DNA from: a virus
Direction: 5' to 3' (one strand)
IMG/VR virus record: IMGVR_UViG_3300042569_002815
Coordinates: 50,162-114,161 of that record
DNA: 64,000 nucleotides
In this document: positions 27,161-36,797 of the stretch, one piece after another
Position numbering within the stretch: position 1 is the stretch's first letter
Layout: every line of letters starts with the position of its first letter
Notes under the pieces: generated by a model
What the model was told of the DNA's origin: nothing
Databases searched by the model: none
What the model saw: only the letters and a program-made list of their open reading frames with translations
Program-made: the position numbers and the translations under genes

Positions 27161-29446
27161 TTACTGGCGAAATCCAGTTCTGACTAAATAAAAATTAGTC
27201 GTTGAGCCAGATACCAGAGCATCGACTGTTAGTACCTGTAAACCAGGATAGGTTGAAGTTAAGTTAGTAGTTCCATTATTAATAGGAGTCCAATCGCTAG
27301 CTTTAAATATTCTGTAAGCTGGAGTTGAGTTTGGCCAAGCTGAAAGATTAGAATTTGCTTTAGAATAAACTAGAAAAATATCCGTTATTGATAGAGTTGA
27401 ATTTCCATTCGCATCCATTCTATAATAATCCTTTGAATTAAATGATTGACTTAAAACTTTTTGAGTAAATGATTGAGCATCAGTTGAGGTTGGATTATCT
27501 ACAGTAATAGAACCAATAACTATTCTAAAATCATTTTTATTTGCACTCAATTGGGTCGAAAAAGAATACGCTCCACTTGAATTAGTTGTGGCTGAACTAA
27601 GTAGACTATAATTTGAATCGGGTTTTGGTTTTGAATAAAGCTGAATTGAAATATTTGCAATACCAACTCCTTCAGAATTATACACATTTCCAGTTTGGGA
27701 AAATGGCGCAACTATAATCATTCCAGCGCTTGAAAAGGTAAATCCACACGTTCCATTTTGTAATTGAGCTCTATACAAAACTCCATCAGTTTGATTTGAA
27801 TATGAATTAGTAGCAGAGGTATTTGTAATATCTGACCAAGTTACTCCGTCATTAATTGAACGCTGCCATTTAACAATAGTTCCAGTGTAACCGCTTAGAG
27901 TTAGGGTACCTGAGTTAGTTGAAGTTGCATGTACAGCAGATGAAACTGATCCTCCAACTGGTGGAGTTCCTGAAGTTACAGTAATGGTTTTTGCAGTAGA
28001 CATTACAGCCGCTCCACAGTTTGGCGTTTGTACTTCAACTCGATAATAATAAGTTCCAGCTGTACTAATCGTTTGGTTTAAACTAGCAGTGGTATTTGAA
28101 ATGTCAGTCCAGTTAACATTATCAGTAGATCTCTGCCATTTATTAATATTTCCCTGTTGACCAGATAGAGTAAGTTCAGCCTGTCCACCTGAACAAATTG
28201 AATTGTTTGCAGCAAATATTGTTCCTGCATTAGTTGGTTTAACTGATAGAAAAACACTTGAAGTTGCAAGGCCAGTACATGAAGTTGGACTAGTTGAATT
28301 TATAATTGCTCTATAATAAGTTGTTTTAGTTAAGTTAGTTACGGTTATACTAGAGGAAGTACTTGTTATAGTTGTTCCAGCTGTAAAGAAGTTATCAAAT
28401 GAAGATTCCCATCTAACTATACTTCCTGTGTAATTGTTTAAGGTTAAGGTTGTACTGTTTGAGCCAGAACATACATTAAGATTTCCACCTGATATCCAAC
28501 CGCTTGATGCCCCACTAATTTCAAGGTTTCTGGTTGAGATAGTTACACTTGAAGTTATATCTCCTGGCATATCTCCGTATTCACAAATATAGCCACCTAA
28601 ATTTACATTTGGTAAATCATTCCATTGACCATTATTAGATGAATAGAATTGTCCGTAATGTTCACCACCAGCATTGTTTGGTTCTCCTCCTGCCCATTTG
28701 GCATATTGTCCAGTTACTGCAGTTGATGAATTTGAAAATTGAGTTCCTTTTTCTGGCCCAGTTACCCAATGCCATTTTTGTTCAACCGCTGATTGCGACG
28801 CAAAGGCAGTACTACCCTTTGCTGTATTTACAGCAGATACTTCATCGGAAGCGCCAAACCACGCGTCAGAGGACATTAATTTCCAAACAAAGTTATTTTC
28901 TGCTTCGGATGACATTGTTGCCAAATAACCGGCTCTACCAAAATAAGAACGATTTTCTGCTGAGGTTTTTGCATTTGTCCAAGTTGTACTTCCAGAAACG
29001 TACTCGTAAAAGTGTTCAGTTAGAGGGTTGTAAAATAATGTACCGGCAACAAATGTTACACGTCTTTGGAGAGCATAGCAAGTTGACGTAGTAGATCTAA
29101 ACTCTACTCCTCTTAAAACGGTTTGCCAATCAGTTGCGCTCGCTGTGCCATTAAATACTAAAACTCCAGTTGTTGTATTAAATGCTGAAACGCTTACGCC
29201 CGATGGAAGAGTTACAGTTGATCTTAATTGATCTCCACTTGTATAGGATTGAGATATCTGAACCCTAAATCCAGTGATTGTTCCATTTGCAGTTACCGCT
29301 ACGTTTGGATCAACCTTTGTCCAAGTATTATAGCTAACAGATAGAGTCGAAGAGCTTCCTCCCAAACTAACAGACGTTGCTTGGGCATTTACCAAAGTTG
29401 GCGCTAACCAAATAAGACTTAGTAATATGAGAGCTCTTTTAAACAT
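27161..29446 (-). CDS. Secreted multidomain protein with C-type lectin-like and dockerin-like modules
   Basis: 761 aa. Signal peptide 1-21 (ends LVNAQ). Residues about 130-290 are C-type lectin-like (YLATMSSEAENNFVW, WVTGPEKGTQF, KWAGGEPNN, GQWNDLPN, GGYICEYG). Residues about 315-580 hold several Ig-like repeats with recurring RSTDNVNW or RSINDGVTW motifs. A carboxypeptidase-regulatory-like unit (AYSFSTQLS) and a dockerin-like EF loop (DANGNSTLSITDIFLVYSK) follow. It shares the SAWPNST module with the 33166-35100 protein. Expected on the cell surface or outside; sugar binding is likely. Confidence 0.82.
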   Translation of the reverse strand: MFKRALILLSLIWLAPTLVNAQATSVSLGGSSSTLSVSYNTWTKVDPNVAVTANGTITGFRVQISQSYTSGDQLRSTVTLPSGVSVSAFNTTTGVLVFNGTASATDWQTVLRGVEFRSTTSTCYALQRRVTFVAGTLFYNPLTEHFYEYVSGSTTWTNAKTSAENRSYFGRAGYLATMSSEAENNFVWKLMSSDAWFGASDEVSAVNTAKGSTAFASQSAVEQKWHWVTGPEKGTQFSNSSTAVTGQYAKWAGGEPNNAGGEHYGQFYSSNNGQWNDLPNVNLGGYICEYGDMPGDITSSVTISTRNLEISGASSGWISGGNLNVCSGSNSTTLTLNNYTGSIVRWESSFDNFFTAGTTITSTSSSITVTNLTKTTYYRAIINSTSPTSCTGLATSSVFLSVKPTNAGTIFAANNSICSGGQAELTLSGQQGNINKWQRSTDNVNWTDISNTTASLNQTISTAGTYYYRVEVQTPNCGAAVMSTAKTITVTSGTPPVGGSVSSAVHATSTNSGTLTLSGYTGTIVKWQRSINDGVTWSDITNTSATNSYSNQTDGVLYRAQLQNGTCGFTFSSAGMIIVAPFSQTGNVYNSEGVGIANISIQLYSKPKPDSNYSLLSSATTNSSGAYSFSTQLSANKNDFRIVIGSITVDNPTSTDAQSFTQKVLSQSFNSKDYYRMDANGNSTLSITDIFLVYSKANSNLSAWPNSTPAYRIFKASDWTPINNGTTNLTSTYPGLQVLTVDALVSGSTTNFYLVRTGFRQ

Positions 29447-29448
29447 AA

Positions 29449-29895
29449 TTACATTTTGCTAACTGCGTCTAATAAACTTTTCTTTATAGCGCTAGCAAAA
29501 GTTGTTTTTTCAAATGGAAGGTTCTCATCCTTTAATTCAATTAAGGTAGATTTAACTGTTGTTTTAGCAGTACCTTCTCCAATATATTCTTTACCATCTT
29601 TGGTAACTTTAACTTTAATAATAGTTTCCTTTTTAATTGCAGTAAAGGGTCCAATTGCAATTCCTGTAGTTGGAGCTTCAATTGAAAATACGTCTACTGT
29701 AATTGGCGAACCGTCATTACAAATTGTAAATTTTTCTGAAACGATTTCTTCGGCTAATTGTTTAATACCGAAAATTACTCTTTCTTTTTTCATATCAGGC
29801 GCATCTGCACTTGCTACAACACTTGTTACTTTATAACAAGGTTCAGTAAACGAAAGTAGAGTAAGCGTCGATAAAACTAATAATAACTTCTTCAT
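29449..29895 (-). CDS. Exported protein of unknown family
   Basis: 148 aa. N-terminal signal peptide (MKKLLLVLSTLTLLSFTEP, then Cys20; the site is not a classical lipobox). The mature part is beta-rich, and the C-terminal helix (SAIKKSLLDAVSKM) resembles that of the CsgG-like protein at 31605-32318 (KKSLETAASRVVSKL). Likely periplasmic or membrane-anchored partner in the same export block. Confidence 0.7.
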   Translation of the reverse strand: MKKLLLVLSTLTLLSFTEPCYKVTSVVASADAPDMKKERVIFGIKQLAEEIVSEKFTICNDGSPITVDVFSIEAPTTGIAIGPFTAIKKETIIKVKVTKDGKEYIGEGTAKTTVKSTLIELKDENLPFEKTTFASAIKKSLLDAVSKM

Positions 29896-29910: not shown

Positions 29911-31608
29911 TTAAAGCATAACCTTACCGCCAGTTAAGACCTGATAGTTAAGCATATTTTTATTCATTTCATAAGTTCCCGAGAAACTTATATTAAATTT
30001 AAATTTCTTTGTAATTGAATAATCCCATGAACTAAATGGAACTACTAATAATCCTGAACTCCACCATTGGCCTTCATAGAATTGTGTAAATGGAGAATAG
30101 ACTCCAAGTACTAAAAGAGTACCTGTTACCTTTTTACCTGCATTAAACATGTAAAATCCTCCACCAACTGCTGACAAGTTTTGAAAACCAGTTTCTCCAA
30201 TTGCACCAGCTGTAAAGTTTAAACCGCCCATTAGGGAAAGCTTAGTAAATCTCTTTGATCCAAGTAAAGTTGTAGTATTAAAGAAGTCCCTTGCTGGATT
30301 TACCATTGACGAGTTTGCAACAATAATAGTTGTTTTTGATTTAGGCAAAGTCCAAGCTCCATAAAAGGTAATATTTGAATTATTAATTTGAGTAGTAAAG
30401 TTTCCTAAAAATCCTCTAGCAAAAGTATTTTTAGTATTAGACTTAGTCATACTCATTGTAAATTTAAACTGGTCCTTTTCTCCCTCTTCCGCGCTTCGTA
30501 CTGCAACAATATCGCCAGTTCCAATTAAGGCTCCAGTTCTTGCTCGGTTTTTATCTCCATTCTTTGAGCTACCTCCGCTTGAACTGCTACCTCCGCTGCT
30601 GCCTCCGCTTGAAGTTGCTTCAGCTGCATTAGATACTGAGTTAGTTGTTCCGCCATTACCTCCACTTGAATTAGATTGAGTTAACCCGCCAGACTCTGTT
30701 GTGTTTCCAGTACCTCCGGCTGATCCCGAACCTGTGCCATTAGTGTTACCATTAGATCCAGTTCCAGTTGTACCAGATGATCCCGTATTACCTACAGGCG
30801 GCTGAGACGACGAACCTCCTCCTTGAGTTGAACTACCTGAACCTGAGCCGCTTCCTCCCGAGCCTGAAGCAGGGTTTCCACCTGTTTGGCCAGATCCTGA
30901 ACCTGATCCAGTGTTTCCGCTTCCAGTATTTCCACTAGAACCTGTTGTATTTCCTCCGTTATTATTAGATGACCCATTTCCTTGATTATTTCCTGAACCT
31001 ACTGATCCCGACGAGCTTTGATTGCCGCCTTGACTTGATCCACTAGATTGACTACCCCCATTAGAACCAGAGGAGCCAGTATTATTGCTGCTATTACTAC
31101 CGCCGCTATTCCCATTTCCGCCATTACGATTGTTATTATTTTTCTTTTCACCACTGCCTCCGTTACCGGTACCGTCTCCGCTTGATCCATTATTTACAGT
31201 GTTTCCAAGATTACCTCCAACCGTACTTGATGCGCCAGCTATGTTTGATGCAAGACTTGACGCCATCATTGATACTGACGTAATATTAGTCAGGGTTGAA
31301 ATAATATTATTTGTAACAATTAAATTTGTTGATTGAACTGCTTGTGTTGTTGCTTGATCACAAGGTTTTCCAGCATTTGCGCCAGATGTTTGATTTAACC
31401 AAGCTAAAAATGCTCCATTACTAAAATCTGTATTAGTAAATGTTCCAACTTGCCCATAATATGTAACAGCAATAGCTGCTCCACTTAATGGAACTGAAAC
31501 AAATTTAATATTTTTTGTACATGGATCTACATATTGATAAATGTAGCTTTGTGCTTTTACTAAGGAAGTAGAAGCAAATAAAAATACCAGTAAGACTAGA
31601 TTTTTCAT
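29911..31608 (-). CDS. Exported protein with Gly/Ser/Asn-rich linker and barrel-like C-terminus
   Basis: 565 aa. Signal peptide 1-19. Residues about 20-140 are a soluble domain with Cys pairs. Residues about 140-355 are low-complexity G/S/N/T repeats. Residues about 365-565 look like antiparallel strands of an outer-membrane barrel (FKFTMSMTKSN, GLNFTAGAIGET, FKFNISFSGTYEMN). The last residues (GGKVML) do not end in the usual Phe. Function unknown; likely surface-exposed. Its start overlaps the CsgG-like stop by 4 nt. Confidence 0.75.
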   Translation of the reverse strand: MKNLVLLVFLFASTSLVKAQSYIYQYVDPCTKNIKFVSVPLSGAAIAVTYYGQVGTFTNTDFSNGAFLAWLNQTSGANAGKPCDQATTQAVQSTNLIVTNNIISTLTNITSVSMMASSLASNIAGASSTVGGNLGNTVNNGSSGDGTGNGGSGEKKNNNNRNGGNGNSGGSNSSNNTGSSGSNGGSQSSGSSQGGNQSSSGSVGSGNNQGNGSSNNNGGNTTGSSGNTGSGNTGSGSGSGQTGGNPASGSGGSGSGSGSSTQGGGSSSQPPVGNTGSSGTTGTGSNGNTNGTGSGSAGGTGNTTESGGLTQSNSSGGNGGTTNSVSNAAEATSSGGSSGGSSSSGGSSKNGDKNRARTGALIGTGDIVAVRSAEEGEKDQFKFTMSMTKSNTKNTFARGFLGNFTTQINNSNITFYGAWTLPKSKTTIIVANSSMVNPARDFFNTTTLLGSKRFTKLSLMGGLNFTAGAIGETGFQNLSAVGGGFYMFNAGKKVTGTLLVLGVYSPFTQFYEGQWWSSGLLVVPFSSWDYSITKKFKFNISFSGTYEMNKNMLNYQVLTGGKVML

Positions 31609-32318
31609 CGTCTAAAAACTCCCTTTTTGATCAACTTGCTTACAACGCGTGAAGCAGCAGTCTCAAGGGATTTCTTAGTAGATATACCGATCGTTGATTG
31701 ATTAAATTTAACTTCATCAACTCCGTCCAATAGACTTGCTTTCTTAACGGTGATGGCTTCTCCAAGACCTGAGCCAGTAATTATTTCACCGGTTTCAGAA
31801 TCAACAAATCTTACTTGAAGGCCGATTGTGGTTTTTTGTTTAACCTCTGCACCAGATACTTGAATTTCTTCATCTTCTGAAATTGCAAAGTCATAAACTT
31901 CGATATACACAAAATATTTAGCAAGGATAACATTTCCTTTTACCTGAATAGTATTTGCTGAGATTCCCTTATCTGATGCTTTTTGTTGAGCAATCATTTT
32001 TTGTTTAATCTCTTCTCTGTCCTCTGTGAATTTAAATCTATCGGTTGATTCTAAAAATTCAAGAACAATATTGGCAACACCAAGACCTACACGATTGTCC
32101 TTTAATTCAGGGTACATTGCATAGAGTTCTTCGTTAATACCAATTTTCAATACCTGTATAGGAATTACAATAGTATCATCGTAATTTGCAACAAGGTTTA
32201 TTGACTGTTTCTTTTCAAAATCAGCCTGATAGGTTTCAGTTTTAGTTGAACCAATGGTTTGAGCTTGAGCACCCACCGCCAATAGCAGCATGATGCAAAT
32301 TACGATTAACTTTTTCAT
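31605..32318 (-). CDS. CsgG-like secretion/outer-membrane protein
   Basis: 237 aa. Signal peptide 1-19 (ends GAQAQ), no lipid cysteine. The CsgG pattern is visible: GLGVANIVLEFLESTDRFKF, a helix with EIKQKMIAQQ, GNVILAKYFVYIEVYDF, and VRFVDSETGEIITGSG, with a C-terminal helix. In bacteria CsgG forms the curli secretion pore; related proteins have other envelope roles. Lack of the lipobox and separate csgE/csgF means a curli role cannot be assumed. It sits amid other exported phage proteins, its likely partners. Confidence 0.75.
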   Translation of the reverse strand: MKKLIVICIMLLLAVGAQAQTIGSTKTETYQADFEKKQSINLVANYDDTIVIPIQVLKIGINEELYAMYPELKDNRVGLGVANIVLEFLESTDRFKFTEDREEIKQKMIAQQKASDKGISANTIQVKGNVILAKYFVYIEVYDFAISEDEEIQVSGAEVKQKTTIGLQVRFVDSETGEIITGSGLGEAITVKKASLLDGVDEVKFNQSTIGISTKKSLETAASRVVSKLIKKGVFRR

Positions 32319-32433: not shown

Positions 32434-32793
32434 TTATTCAGCAGTATTAGATAAAGACTGACCGTCTTCTTCGTCAACTTTCTGAATTAACATTTTGTCG
32501 CGATCTTCTGAATTAAACCAGTAGTCAACAACTTTATTTAGGTTACCAACGAATGCACCCAAAAGAATTAATAACATTTCTTTCCAGTCTTCTCCGATAG
32601 TAGCACCCATAAATACGCCAGCATTAATTCCTACAATAATTAAAGTGAATAACCCTAATACAATTGCAGTAATTCTCCATCTGTTTGCTTGCATTTGTTG
32701 TAACATGTAATAGAATCTGTTCCTATCATCTACTTTTACATATTCTTCTTTTCCGAAGCCTAATGCATTTTTAACCGTTTCTTTAATAGACAT
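32434..32793 (-). CDS. Membrane protein, two spans
   Basis: 119 aa. Soluble N-terminus (1-38), two membrane segments at about 40-62 and 70-86 (LLILLGAFVGNLNKVVDYW), and an acidic tail. Holin-like topology but longer than usual. No family recognised. Confidence 0.65.
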   Translation of the reverse strand: MSIKETVKNALGFGKEEYVKVDDRNRFYYMLQQMQANRWRITAIVLGLFTLIIVGINAGVFMGATIGEDWKEMLLILLGAFVGNLNKVVDYWFNSEDRDKMLIQKVDEEDGQSLSNTAE

Positions 32794-32815: not shown

Positions 32816-33139
32816 TTACCAAGACTCTTCTTCTTTCTTAGGTTCAGCCTTAGGTTTTGCAGGCTCTGCTGCAGGTTTTTCAATAACACGCTCTTTAATA
32901 ATTGTGTTAGTTCCACCAGATTGTTTTTGTTGGTTAGTGTTATTGTTTTCAAGGTTGATTACAACTGGAGCAGGGGCTGGGGCAGCTTGTTCAGTTTTAG
33001 TCTCTTCCTTGTCGCTTCCACCACCGAAAAGAGTAGTAGTCAAATAGGTTCCACCTGCTAATACTGCAGTTGAAAGAGTTCCTATGATGGTCTTTTTAAG
33101 ACCTGACCAAGTGCCTTCGTTTTGTGTTTCTTCAGACAT
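32816..33139 (-). CDS. Membrane-anchored Pro/Glu-rich protein
   Basis: 107 aa. One membrane segment about 17-41 (TIIGTLSTAVLAGGTYLTTTLF) then a disordered tail of Ala/Pro/Lys/Glu repeats. Might span the periplasm; no family recognised. Confidence 0.65.
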   Translation of the reverse strand: MSEETQNEGTWSGLKKTIIGTLSTAVLAGGTYLTTTLFGGGSDKEETKTEQAAPAPAPVVINLENNNTNQQKQSGGTNTIIKERVIEKPAAEPAKPKAEPKKEEESW

Positions 33140-33165: not shown

Positions 33166-35100
33166 TTACTTTGAAACTATTTCTTTTGCTGATGCAACTT
33201 TCTTACCAGCGGTTAGGATCGCATAGTAAATTCCACCTTGAACATGGCTTAAGTCTGTACTATAAGTATAGGTTCCAGCTGGCATAAATTGATTTACTAG
33301 GGTTTTAATTGGCTGACCTAAGTTATCTCTAAATGTAAGATTAACCATTGCATCTTCTAAAACGTTAAATGTTACTGCAACATGACCTTGAGTTGGGTTT
33401 GGTGCAAGTTTAACTGTCATTAAATTATTTTCAATAGTTCCTACTCCCCATCCTGGATTAACAATTAAGACTTGAATAATTCCGTCAGTCGGGGTAATGT
33501 TTAAATCTTTATGAGTTGTATTAACTCCAGCATATTTTCTAGTCACATAAAGCGGGCTTTTATTCCATTGATCTTTTGGAACAAGCGCTAGGAATTGAAG
33601 ATTAAACGCAGTTTGTCCATCTGCAATTGGGTGAGTTGTTGTAAAATCTGCACCACCCCATTCAATAGTACCATCTTGTGGGTTTACAAAAGAAAGCCAG
33701 TGTGAAATATTTTCAGTCGCTGCGATTGATTTAAATTCAAGTAATTGTGGATCGTATTTTAAAGCCAATTGAAGAGATCCTAATTGAACATTGTTAGATA
33801 AAACTTTAACTGGAACATTAAGAAGATTACCTGCTTCAACTGTAATTTCTGGCATGTTTACTTCAATTGTTTCTAAAGTAGCTGCATTATCATATTGAGT
33901 TGTTGCATCAATAATATGGTTAGGCGCATTGTTTGGATTAACAATTTGAATAGGAACCATACGTGCCATGTGGAAACCAGTTCCGTTTGCATCTCCTTTA
34001 CCTAATACATAGAACGTTACAGAATCAGGTTGACCTGCGACAATATTAAATGTAATATCAGTTGTACCTGCAATTGATGATGTATAGTTAGTAGATGAAC
34101 CGTTAATTGTATTGTATTCAGCTACGGTAAAGAATTTAACATCCATTGTACTGTTTGGCCATGCAGAGAATCTTCCAGCTAATCTACCATAGATACCATA
34201 CGCATCTGTAATTGAGATAGTATTATCTGAGTTTACGTCAGCTGCATAATAATCAAATCCAAGTGGAGTAGCTTGACCTAATACGTATTGGTTTACTTTA
34301 GCAGCATCCGCTGTAGAGATTGTATTACCTACAGTTAAGGTATCACCTTTAACATAGAGACGAGCATTAAAATAAGTTGTATCAACAACTACATCATTAA
34401 ATGCAAATGCTCCAGATACGGCAGTCGTATCCATTTTGATAGTTGTCCAAGTACCACCAGTTTTTGGGCGTTGTTGTAATTGAACAATAATGTTCTTAGA
34501 ACCAGAACCAGTTACGTTAGTGAATGTACCGTGGTAATTAAGAGATGGACGCAAGAAGATACCACCGTAGTTATGTTGGCTTAGTGTACCATCAGTACCA
34601 TCTTGTTTTGCTAACAGTTGAGGAAACGAGTTTCCGCTAGTTGCAGACCAAGTTAAGTTTGAAATTGCAGTTAAGGCTTGGAATGTAGCATTCGCGGCAT
34701 GATTAAATGTAATTTCAAAAGTTTCACCTTGAGCTAGCGACCATGTACTGCTTGAACCTGTATAAACAAGAGTAATTGTAATAAATCCATTAGTTGAATC
34801 AGTTACATAAGAAAGAACTTCGTTTGATGCTGGAGTTACTGCAGCGACCGTAGCACCAGTAAATGCAGTCTTATCATAGAATATTCTAAATTGAAGACCT
34901 GTTACTAGGGTTGAGGTATTATTTTTGTAAGTAATTTTTGCTTTAGTTTGACCAAGCAAAGACGATCCAACTGTATAGTTGGTGTCAATAATTACCCAAG
35001 CACCAGTAGATGGGGCTGGGGGACCCGTTTGGGCATAAGTTTCTGTTGTAGCCGCAAAACATAATACAGCACACAAAATGGTTAATAACCAGTTTTTCAT
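33166..35100 (-). CDS. Secreted protein with cohesin/dockerin-like modules and a type IX sorting domain
   Basis: 644 aa. Signal peptide 1-23 (ends ETYAQ). Residues about 30-165 form a first cohesin-like beta domain. A dockerin-like loop (DVNSDNTISITDAYGIYGR) and the SAWPNST module match the 27161-29446 protein. A second cohesin-like domain spans about 415-550. The last 80 residues (KLAPNPTQGHVAVTF, DNLGQPI, GGIYYAIL, KEIVSK) fit the type IX C-terminal sorting domain, which sends proteins across the outer membrane in Bacteroidota. A late promoter lies 22 nt upstream. Expected on the surface or secreted late. Confidence 0.82.
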   Translation of the reverse strand: MKNWLLTILCAVLCFAATTETYAQTGPPAPSTGAWVIIDTNYTVGSSLLGQTKAKITYKNNTSTLVTGLQFRIFYDKTAFTGATVAAVTPASNEVLSYVTDSTNGFITITLVYTGSSSTWSLAQGETFEITFNHAANATFQALTAISNLTWSATSGNSFPQLLAKQDGTDGTLSQHNYGGIFLRPSLNYHGTFTNVTGSGSKNIIVQLQQRPKTGGTWTTIKMDTTAVSGAFAFNDVVVDTTYFNARLYVKGDTLTVGNTISTADAAKVNQYVLGQATPLGFDYYAADVNSDNTISITDAYGIYGRLAGRFSAWPNSTMDVKFFTVAEYNTINGSSTNYTSSIAGTTDITFNIVAGQPDSVTFYVLGKGDANGTGFHMARMVPIQIVNPNNAPNHIIDATTQYDNAATLETIEVNMPEITVEAGNLLNVPVKVLSNNVQLGSLQLALKYDPQLLEFKSIAATENISHWLSFVNPQDGTIEWGGADFTTTHPIADGQTAFNLQFLALVPKDQWNKSPLYVTRKYAGVNTTHKDLNITPTDGIIQVLIVNPGWGVGTIENNLMTVKLAPNPTQGHVAVTFNVLEDAMVNLTFRDNLGQPIKTLVNQFMPAGTYTYSTDLSHVQGGIYYAILTAGKKVASAKEIVSK

Positions 35101-35162: not shown

Positions 35163-35193
35163 AAAAAAAGAGGAACAATATTGTTCCTCTTTT
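35163..35193 (-). terminator. Rho-independent terminator
   Basis: 28-bp perfect palindrome with arm AAAAGAGGAACAAT and a T run on the minus strand; ends the lipoprotein transcript. Confidence 0.85.
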
Positions 35194-35215: not shown

Positions 35216-35383
35216 TTACTTAGTTGCAGTAGTGTCTACGGTTGCAGTCGAGTCTGCTGCTACTACAGTTGAGTCTACTTGAGTAGAGTCAGCCGCAGGA
35301 GCTTCAGCGGTCGTTGCACCATTTCCACATGCAGTAAATCCTACTGCAGCAACTAGAATCATTACGATTGCGTACTTTTTCAT
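35216..35383 (-). CDS. Small Ala/Ser/Thr-rich lipoprotein
   Basis: 55 aa. MKKYAIVMILVAAVGFTAC is a lipoprotein signal with Cys19, then a disordered tail rich in A, D, S, T and V (ADSTQVDST, DTTATK). This is a common kind of lipoprotein in Bacteroidota genomes, so recent transfer from a host is likely. A GTATAATA element lies 31 nt upstream. Function unknown. Confidence 0.8.
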   Translation of the reverse strand: MKKYAIVMILVAAVGFTACGNGATTAEAPAADSTQVDSTVVAADSTATVDTTATK

Positions 35384-35441: not shown

Positions 35442-36056
35442 TTAAATTCCAGACTCTTCAAATGCTTGCCTCATTCTTGCAGAGAGTTGATCGTATCTCA
35501 TGTTAAATTTTGGCGAACAGGCACTAAGAACAGTCTTATTTGAATATGGTGTATTGCCAGGTTTACACCATTTTCTAGAAGTAAGCATCCAATTATAGAA
35601 GAGAACATAAGCATTTGCACTCTTAGTATACTTTTCAATATTAATAGGCAAATTAAAGTCCCTTATTAATTGAACACTACGTTTTTCGTTATCTAGTTCA
35701 AGATCTCTAGATAGGGCCATCCATTTTTCAATATTACGTTTAGTTGCACCATTTAACCACTCTTCAATATGACCCATTGCATAGCCAGATTCTTTCCAAA
35801 TAGGAATCTTTTCATTCCATTGGGTAAAGTGTCCAAATTCGTGTACTAAAACTTCAACTGATACTGGATTTAACATGGCAACCACAAGCTTTCGATTTTG
35901 GTCATCGAAATAACCTGAACACTTCATACCCTGACCAAGTCTTAGGTATCTAACGTTTCTCAGTTCGACTTTGATTCCAGTATTTTTACATTCAGACTTT
36001 ACGTGCTTAATGAATGCTTTAATACGTGGATGTTCTAGTCGACTGGCGGTTGTCAT
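35442..36056 (-). CDS. Putative zinc metalloprotease (HExxH)
   Basis: 204 aa. Zinc motif VHEFGHFTQW with His72, Glu73 and His76, and a helix with conserved Glu downstream (ELDNEKRS) as candidate third ligand. Compact, no signal peptide, so it would act in the cytoplasm. Family not named with certainty. It lies in the late/exported gene block. Confidence 0.75.
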   Translation of the reverse strand: MTTASRLEHPRIKAFIKHVKSECKNTGIKVELRNVRYLRLGQGMKCSGYFDDQNRKLVVAMLNPVSVEVLVHEFGHFTQWNEKIPIWKESGYAMGHIEEWLNGATKRNIEKWMALSRDLELDNEKRSVQLIRDFNLPINIEKYTKSANAYVLFYNWMLTSRKWCKPGNTPYSNKTVLSACSPKFNMRYDQLSARMRQAFEESGI

Positions 36057-36062
36057 ATAAAA

Positions 36063-36797
36063 TTATTTATTTGGCTTCCATACGAGGCCGATTTGAAAGA
36101 CCCCATCGTATGGTTTAATCTCTGGTTTTACCCAAGTTTGATAAGTTTGGTGATTAACGTCACCGCCAAGTGAAAACGATAGGCTTTTTGATAGTGGGTG
36201 CTCTACTAAAACAATAACCCTGCTTACCATGTTATTACTTGCACTAGCACCGGTGTTAGAAAATAGAGGCGGCTGCACAAGGGCAGTAACTGTTAACTTA
36301 GTTAATATACCCAAAACCAGTTTAGTTCTGGTCGAACTTCTTATGGTCCAGGTTCGGTTTCCTTCTATTAGCTGAAGCTGCTCGGTTGTTACTGCTTGTG
36401 AAACTTCCAGTTTTTTGCCAGGCAGATCAATTACAGTAACCTTATAACCAGCCCCTCCGGTCACCCTGAAATCCACCTTTCTGGTATATGAATGTTCCCC
36501 TTCGCTAAATAATATAAGTGACTGGACCTTATCCAGAGTCTTCCAGCCATATACCGAGGCTGTAATATCCCGTCTTTGCAGAACCATTACCTCATTAATT
36601 GAAGCATATTGAACCTGTCCAGAAAGGGTTGCAATTCCACCAAGCTTTCCAGTGTCCTTTGACTTGTATTCGCCTTTCGCGCCAATTAAATAGCCAGCTC
36701 GATTACCGACATTGAGCATGCCATTTATGGAATAGGCTTGTGTTTGAGCCTTTACCAAACTTGGTAAAAAGCATAATATAAAAATTAGTTTCTTCAT
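36063..36797 (-). CDS. Exported beta-barrel-like protein
   Basis: 244 aa. Signal peptide 1-18 (ends VKAQT). Repeated amphipathic strands through to the end (FQIGLVWKPNK) suggest an outer-membrane barrel of small size. No family assigned. Its start overlaps the Prs stop by 4 nt (ATGA-type), so the two are co-transcribed. Confidence 0.7.
   Translation of the reverse strand: MKKLIFILCFLPSLVKAQTQAYSINGMLNVGNRAGYLIGAKGEYKSKDTGKLGGIATLSGQVQYASINEVMVLQRRDITASVYGWKTLDKVQSLILFSEGEHSYTRKVDFRVTGGAGYKVTVIDLPGKKLEVSQAVTTEQLQLIEGNRTWTIRSSTRTKLVLGILTKLTVTALVQPPLFSNTGASASNNMVSRVIVLVEHPLSKSLSFSLGGDVNHQTYQTWVKPEIKPYDGVFQIGLVWKPNK

Follow-up and report, generated by a model that had tools for sequence, protein, structure and literature searches.

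A phage scaffold protein with a predicted type IX sorting domain and a cohesin, encoded beside lectin and CsgG-fold genes, suggests that a family of viruses re-coats the cells it infects

Does a phage send one of its own proteins to the surface of the infected cell through the host type IX secretion system (T9SS), and what would such a protein do there? The question is raised by a gene on the minus strand of the 64,000-nucleotide stretch of viral DNA analysed here (the window). The sequence-only reading had placed at positions 33166–35100 a phage protein with an N-terminal signal peptide and a T9SS C-terminal sorting domain (CTD). The 644-residue frame is there, contained in a 114,161-base IMG/VR viral record that spans the entire window. 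Beyond that reading, our analysis adds a cohesin, a dockerin-like module, a conserved operon and its spread. We call the protein S and divide it as follows.

33166–35100, minus strand: scaffold protein S, 644 residues, with signal peptide, N-terminal beta-sandwich, dockerin-like module, cohesin and type A T9SS CTD
35032–35100, minus strand: Sec signal peptide, residues 1–23 (read by eye; likely cut between A and Q)
34591–35028, minus strand: N-terminal beta-sandwich, residues 25–170 (strands of the model; own HMM)
34201–34323, minus strand: dockerin-like module, residues 260–300 (PF00404; profile match to dockerin)
33583–33864, minus strand: cohesin, residues 413–506 (PF00963; 6kg8; Foldseek)
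33169–33405, minus strand: type A T9SS CTD, residues 566–644 (HMMs, model, alignment)

Both ends of S agree with what had been claimed for them. By eye, the N-terminus reads as a signal peptide (MKNWLLTILCAVLCFAATTETYA, then QTG after the cut), in line with a crude hydrophobicity scan that found a hydrophobic N-terminus in all 133 full-length S proteins. The motifs LAPNP, DNLGQPI, GGIYYAIL and IVSK are all present at the C-terminus. Taken alone, the window copy is borderline against the CTD models: it scored 26.2 bits with PF18962 (Por_Secre_tail; cut-off 27, E 1e-5, residues 567–642) and, with TIGR04183 (cut-off 23), 19.2 bits by hmmscan and 23.5 bits in a genome search. The family removes this doubt, since among 64 non-redundant S relatives (at most 92% identity; match defined as E<=0.01) PF18962 matched all 64 (best E 1.3e-12) and TIGR04183 matched 63 (best E 1.4e-13). 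The type of HMM search proposed for the sorting domain thus bore it out. Solved CTDs were weakly matched by the S family profile (8glj_D, E 0.012; 8glk_D, E 0.024), and the AlphaFold model of S places seven strands in an Ig-like fold over residues 563–642 (pLDDT mostly 77–90), as many strands as have been published for CTDs of type A (PMC12618676, PMC10994853). In the alignment, PNP, F578, G595, G609, Y613, G623 and Y625 are kept by 64 of 64 relatives, and the near-C-terminal lysine, K639 in the window, is lysine in 55, arginine in seven and glutamine in two. At the level of codon substitutions the CTD is under purifying selection (median dN/dS 0.14, maximum 0.27, in 41 usable of 42 pairs picked at 75–96% identity). 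Judged from its sequence, S is encoded by a phage and carries both a Sec signal and a complete T9SS sorting domain of type A.

The middle of S holds modules known from cellulosomes. Its cohesin scored 40.1 bits with PF00963, above the cut-off of 24.1, and was found with the same model in 56 of the 64 relatives (E<=0.01); it also matched 6kg8 (E 0.003), and Foldseek matched it to cohesins of cohesin-dockerin complexes. The other module has a canonical calcium loop (D288–D299) and a second, degenerate one, and the window copy reached 17.8 bits with PF00404, below the cut-off of 22.9. Because a type I dockerin was taken to need a score above that cut-off and two calcium loops, we name the module dockerin-like only; the S family profile did match a solved dockerin, 4uyp_B, at E 7e-4. 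A PHROGs search returned no family for S.

Downstream of S, on the same strand, lie membrane proteins and a set of exported proteins that recur with it.

32816–33139, minus strand: m, 107 residues, one likely membrane helix (family in 158 loci; conserved order)
32434–32793, minus strand: h, 119 residues, two likely membrane helices (86 loci; alignment)
31605–32318, minus strand: G, exported CsgG-fold protein by its model (73% identical to immuto g17)
29911–31608, minus strand: B, exported, with a Gly/Ser/Asn-rich linker and a C-terminal outer-membrane barrel candidate (C-terminus conserved in 144 loci)
29449–29895, minus strand: p, 148 residues, exported (remote relative of G)
27161–29446, minus strand: D, 761 residues, exported, with a C-type lectin region and a C-terminal dockerin-like module and lacking a CTD (PF00059; shared module)

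The order is S first, then the membrane proteins, G, B, the small CsgG-like p and lectin D. S (whole or split), m, G, B, p and D stood together on one strand in 128 of 164 loci, and many of the remaining loci reach a contig end. Nine of the 164 loci repeat a contig or genome already counted, leaving about 155 distinct records as judged from contig names; roughly 150 related viral records carry an S gene with lectin and pore-like neighbours. The model of G has the CsgG fold: Foldseek aligned it to 4uv2 at E 5.9e-9 (a modest TM of about 0.5, model pLDDT 71), and CsgG made up the top matches. Its sequence scored 18.9 bits with PF03783, under the cut-off of 20.8, and three of 39 G members matched that model at E<=0.1. 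Profiles of G and p matched in hhalign at 97.2% (E 3.6e-11, from shallow alignments), and, G apart, no operon protein gave a curli match in the Pfam scans. By sequence, the C-terminus of B looks like an outer-membrane barrel and is a candidate for one, although this region has no Pfam match. Protein h, for which no solved relative was found, is holin-like by appearance only.

Is S truly viral? A tblastn search found a relative of S in the complete genome of immuto, a phage in culture on Flavobacterium sp. LMO8, and pattern scans of IMG/VR confirmed 208 stretches encoding S and 402 encoding G; 80 loci of each were kept, and the locus counts given here rest on these. Pattern scans were also run for S and G across about 85,000 prokaryote genomes: none yielded a confirmed S relative, and for G there were two MAG contigs, which may be misbinned phage. 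All these scans use short peptide patterns and can miss distant relatives. The complete immuto genome, the 208 IMG/VR stretches and the lack of a prokaryote relative in the pattern scan together led us to reject host contamination as the source of S. When isolate phages were searched for CTDs, the sole matches were immuto and a 735-kb record of an uncultured phage (two accessions). The CTD-like segment of the latter (locus L174, 5752–7092; LR756501.1) is internal to an unrelated exported protein, not terminal.

Which protein of the operon bears the export signal is consistent throughout. TIGR04183 gave exactly one match in each of 30 viral records. With the family HMM, 159 of 159 CTDs accompany a cohesin and none of 137 dockerin-only proteins carries a CTD; Por_Secre_tail was likewise absent from 48 D proteins in Pfam. 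The C-type lectin call for the window copy of D is below cut-off (PF00059, 19.0 bits against 22.6), with relatives of D matching down to 1e-17, and EPN and WND motifs are both present in 71 of 94 distinct D proteins. Pfam assigned a C-type lectin to 33 of the 48 D proteins, LamG to 10 and PA14 to three, so that the sugar-binding domains are interchangeable between loci. We considered a diversity-generating retroelement for the lectins and set it aside, as 30 viral records contained no reverse transcriptase.

We used these results to build a reading of the whole operon. S would pass the inner membrane by Sec and then the outer membrane through the host T9SS by means of its type A CTD (SprA pore, PorV shuttle), a route that the sequence of S strongly implies. 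The T9SS would have to be that of the host, because a search of 11 of the family's viral records turned up no gene for the SprA translocon; a phage-encoded translocon was rejected on the same count. Removal of the CTD would follow, and we infer that S is secreted and either stays on the surface of the infected cell or is set free close to it. There its cohesin would bind the dockerin-like modules of the co-encoded D, and perhaps those on further copies of S, so that carbohydrate-binding proteins would cover the cell; this recruitment of lectins by cohesin-dockerin contact we infer from the domain architecture. G, p and the barrel candidate B probably assemble in the outer membrane into a phage-made structure that serves this coat. 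D has no known route of its own across the outer membrane, and may be carried by S through the T9SS or cross via the phage outer-membrane proteins. The benefit would most likely be that infected cells adhere to other cells or to particles, or that a second infection is blocked; adhesion, superinfection exclusion and lysis may all be candidates for the purpose.

We lean, by a modest degree, towards this reading as a whole, in which S is exported by the host T9SS onto the infected cell and its cohesin recruits lectins. It is supported by the constancy of the CTD (64 of 64 relatives, seven strands, purifying selection, one per record), by the swapping of sugar-binding domains in D while S, m, G, B, p and D are kept together, and by the arrangement in immuto-like loci, where the scaffold is split between two genes and the half with the CTD starts with its own hydrophobic leader. 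Against it stand the sub-threshold dockerin-like module of the window with its degenerate loop, the lack of a known outer-membrane route of its own for D, and lysis genes near many copies, which also fit a role in lysis. Three further loci (L004–L006) also count against it: in these a TGA separates the CTD half from any signal peptide, and the half has no second signal. The TGA is in frame, is followed by ATG and falls exactly between scaffold modules (9060–9062 in L004 and L006, 1743–1745 in L005). In one other locus (L152, 7951–8700) an in-frame TGA takes the place of a conserved Trp codon, with the CTD intact after it. These scaffold TGAs may reflect readthrough, recoding, re-initiation or sequence error; in L004–L006 readthrough would restore export and re-initiation would not. 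A stronger version, in which large Bacteroidota phages of a widespread family clothe infected cells in a cohesin-dockerin lectin coat of their own, using the host T9SS and a phage CsgG-type assembly of the outer membrane, to capture neighbours or exclude other phages, we put forward tentatively, as a proposal with less than even prospects.

The alternative that survives best, though we think it unlikely, is that the operon serves to lyse the Bacteroidota envelope: besides the holin-like h and G and B as CsgG-fold pore and barrel, surface proteins would weaken the outer membrane until the cell bursts. It is kept alive by the GH19 endolysin, 199-residue candidate endolysin or holin genes that lie inside the operon or within 3.5 kb of it in 46 of 80 loci with enough flank, and a lysis role has been suggested for phage CsgG (PMC9004378). 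The other 34 loci have no nearby lysis genes, however, the GH19 homologue of the window is about 23 kb distant, the holin likeness of h is one of appearance, and neither lectin diversity nor a surface-sorting signal is needed for lysis. We give still less credence to release of S and D as soluble or matrix glycan-binding proteins that alter aggregation or the capture of nutrients and do not assemble by cohesin-dockerin contact. Type A CTDs can give either static surface anchoring or release into the medium (PMC12618676). The degeneracy of the dockerin-like module would also fit, but nearly every locus has a cohesin together with a dockerin-like module, and both show purifying selection. It is very improbable that the CTD is an ornament of a virion protein with no role in T9SS export: CTDs have an Ig-like fold and phage particles commonly bear Ig-like domains, yet every relative ends in the complete set of type A motifs, a signal peptide is present as well, and the operon genes of immuto adjoin ribonucleotide reductase and nucleases, away from tail and capsid genes.

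Parts of the preferred reading, the lectin coat reached through the host T9SS, have precedents. Phage use of the type IX route had been called not established by the sequence-only reading; this holds in that we found no experiment on such export in the literature searched, but the route is not new as a prediction, because phage T9SS cargo was proposed earlier for Cryophage (PMC7468147) and crAss-like phages (PMC6949934). Cryophage encodes type A T9SS cargo for which hijack of the host system was proposed; its cargo is highly variable (an endoglucanase, a GH39 and a PA14 protein), whereas the window family has one conserved cohesin scaffold in a fixed operon. T9SS sorting domains have been noted in crAss-like phages of cluster 2, one with BACON repeats, on genes that adjoin head genes, and the accessible part of that source mentions no cohesin, dockerin or CsgG. 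A phage CsgG-type protein in a conserved operon is shared with Pelagimyophage and Melnitz, SAR11 and OM43 phages with CsgF, for whose CsgGF operons neighbour-cell capture and lysis were proposed (PMC7029224, PMC9004378); the accessible parts of these reports mention neither a T9SS signal nor a cohesin. RemA of Flavobacterium johnsoniae is a surface adhesin with a type A CTD and a lectin domain (PMC12618676), but it is a host protein with both in one chain, while the phage operon has them on separate proteins. The modules resemble those of cellulosome scaffoldins and dockerins by profile and fold; in contrast to a cellulosome, the predicted system is phage-encoded, has one cohesin per scaffold, replaces enzymes by lectins and is anchored by T9SS, all as predicted from genes. 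The literature searched, which took in few subscription journals and no preprints, held no joint description of phage, CsgG and cohesin and none of a cohesin/dockerin/CsgG phage operon; judged by titles and the openings of abstracts, no phage-encoded cohesin/dockerin system of Bacteroidetes was apparent in it.

If the reading is true, infected cells of a common phage lineage show a virus-made surface, and their sticking, settling and resistance to second infection would be changed. The reading further suggests what several conserved unknown genes in these phages may do, and immuto on Flavobacterium sp. LMO8 is a cultured phage-host pair that allows a direct test.

The region upstream of S offered minor observations on how the operon may be expressed. 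Generic sigma-70 sites were no more frequent than chance. The sequence-only reading had taken S for a late product; as a possible late-promoter motif, ATAAATA occurred upstream of S in 21 of 89 cases, where shuffling gave about 10 and other ORFs had it in 9%, too weak a signal among related sequences to mark a late promoter. A short ORF of about 55 residues with a lipobox-like start, MKKYAIVMILVAAVGFTAC (window 35216–35383, minus strand), precedes the S gene and is followed by a terminator-like hairpin of 12 pairs with a T run (35166–35193, minus strand), so the operon may start a new transcript. Elsewhere in the window are 24 tRNA genes, all on the minus strand (5357–25480). Just upstream of S, at 35442–36056 and 36063–36797 on the minus strand, are a protein with an HEFGH zinc-peptidase-like motif and an exported DUF481-like barrel candidate, both common to the closest relatives only.
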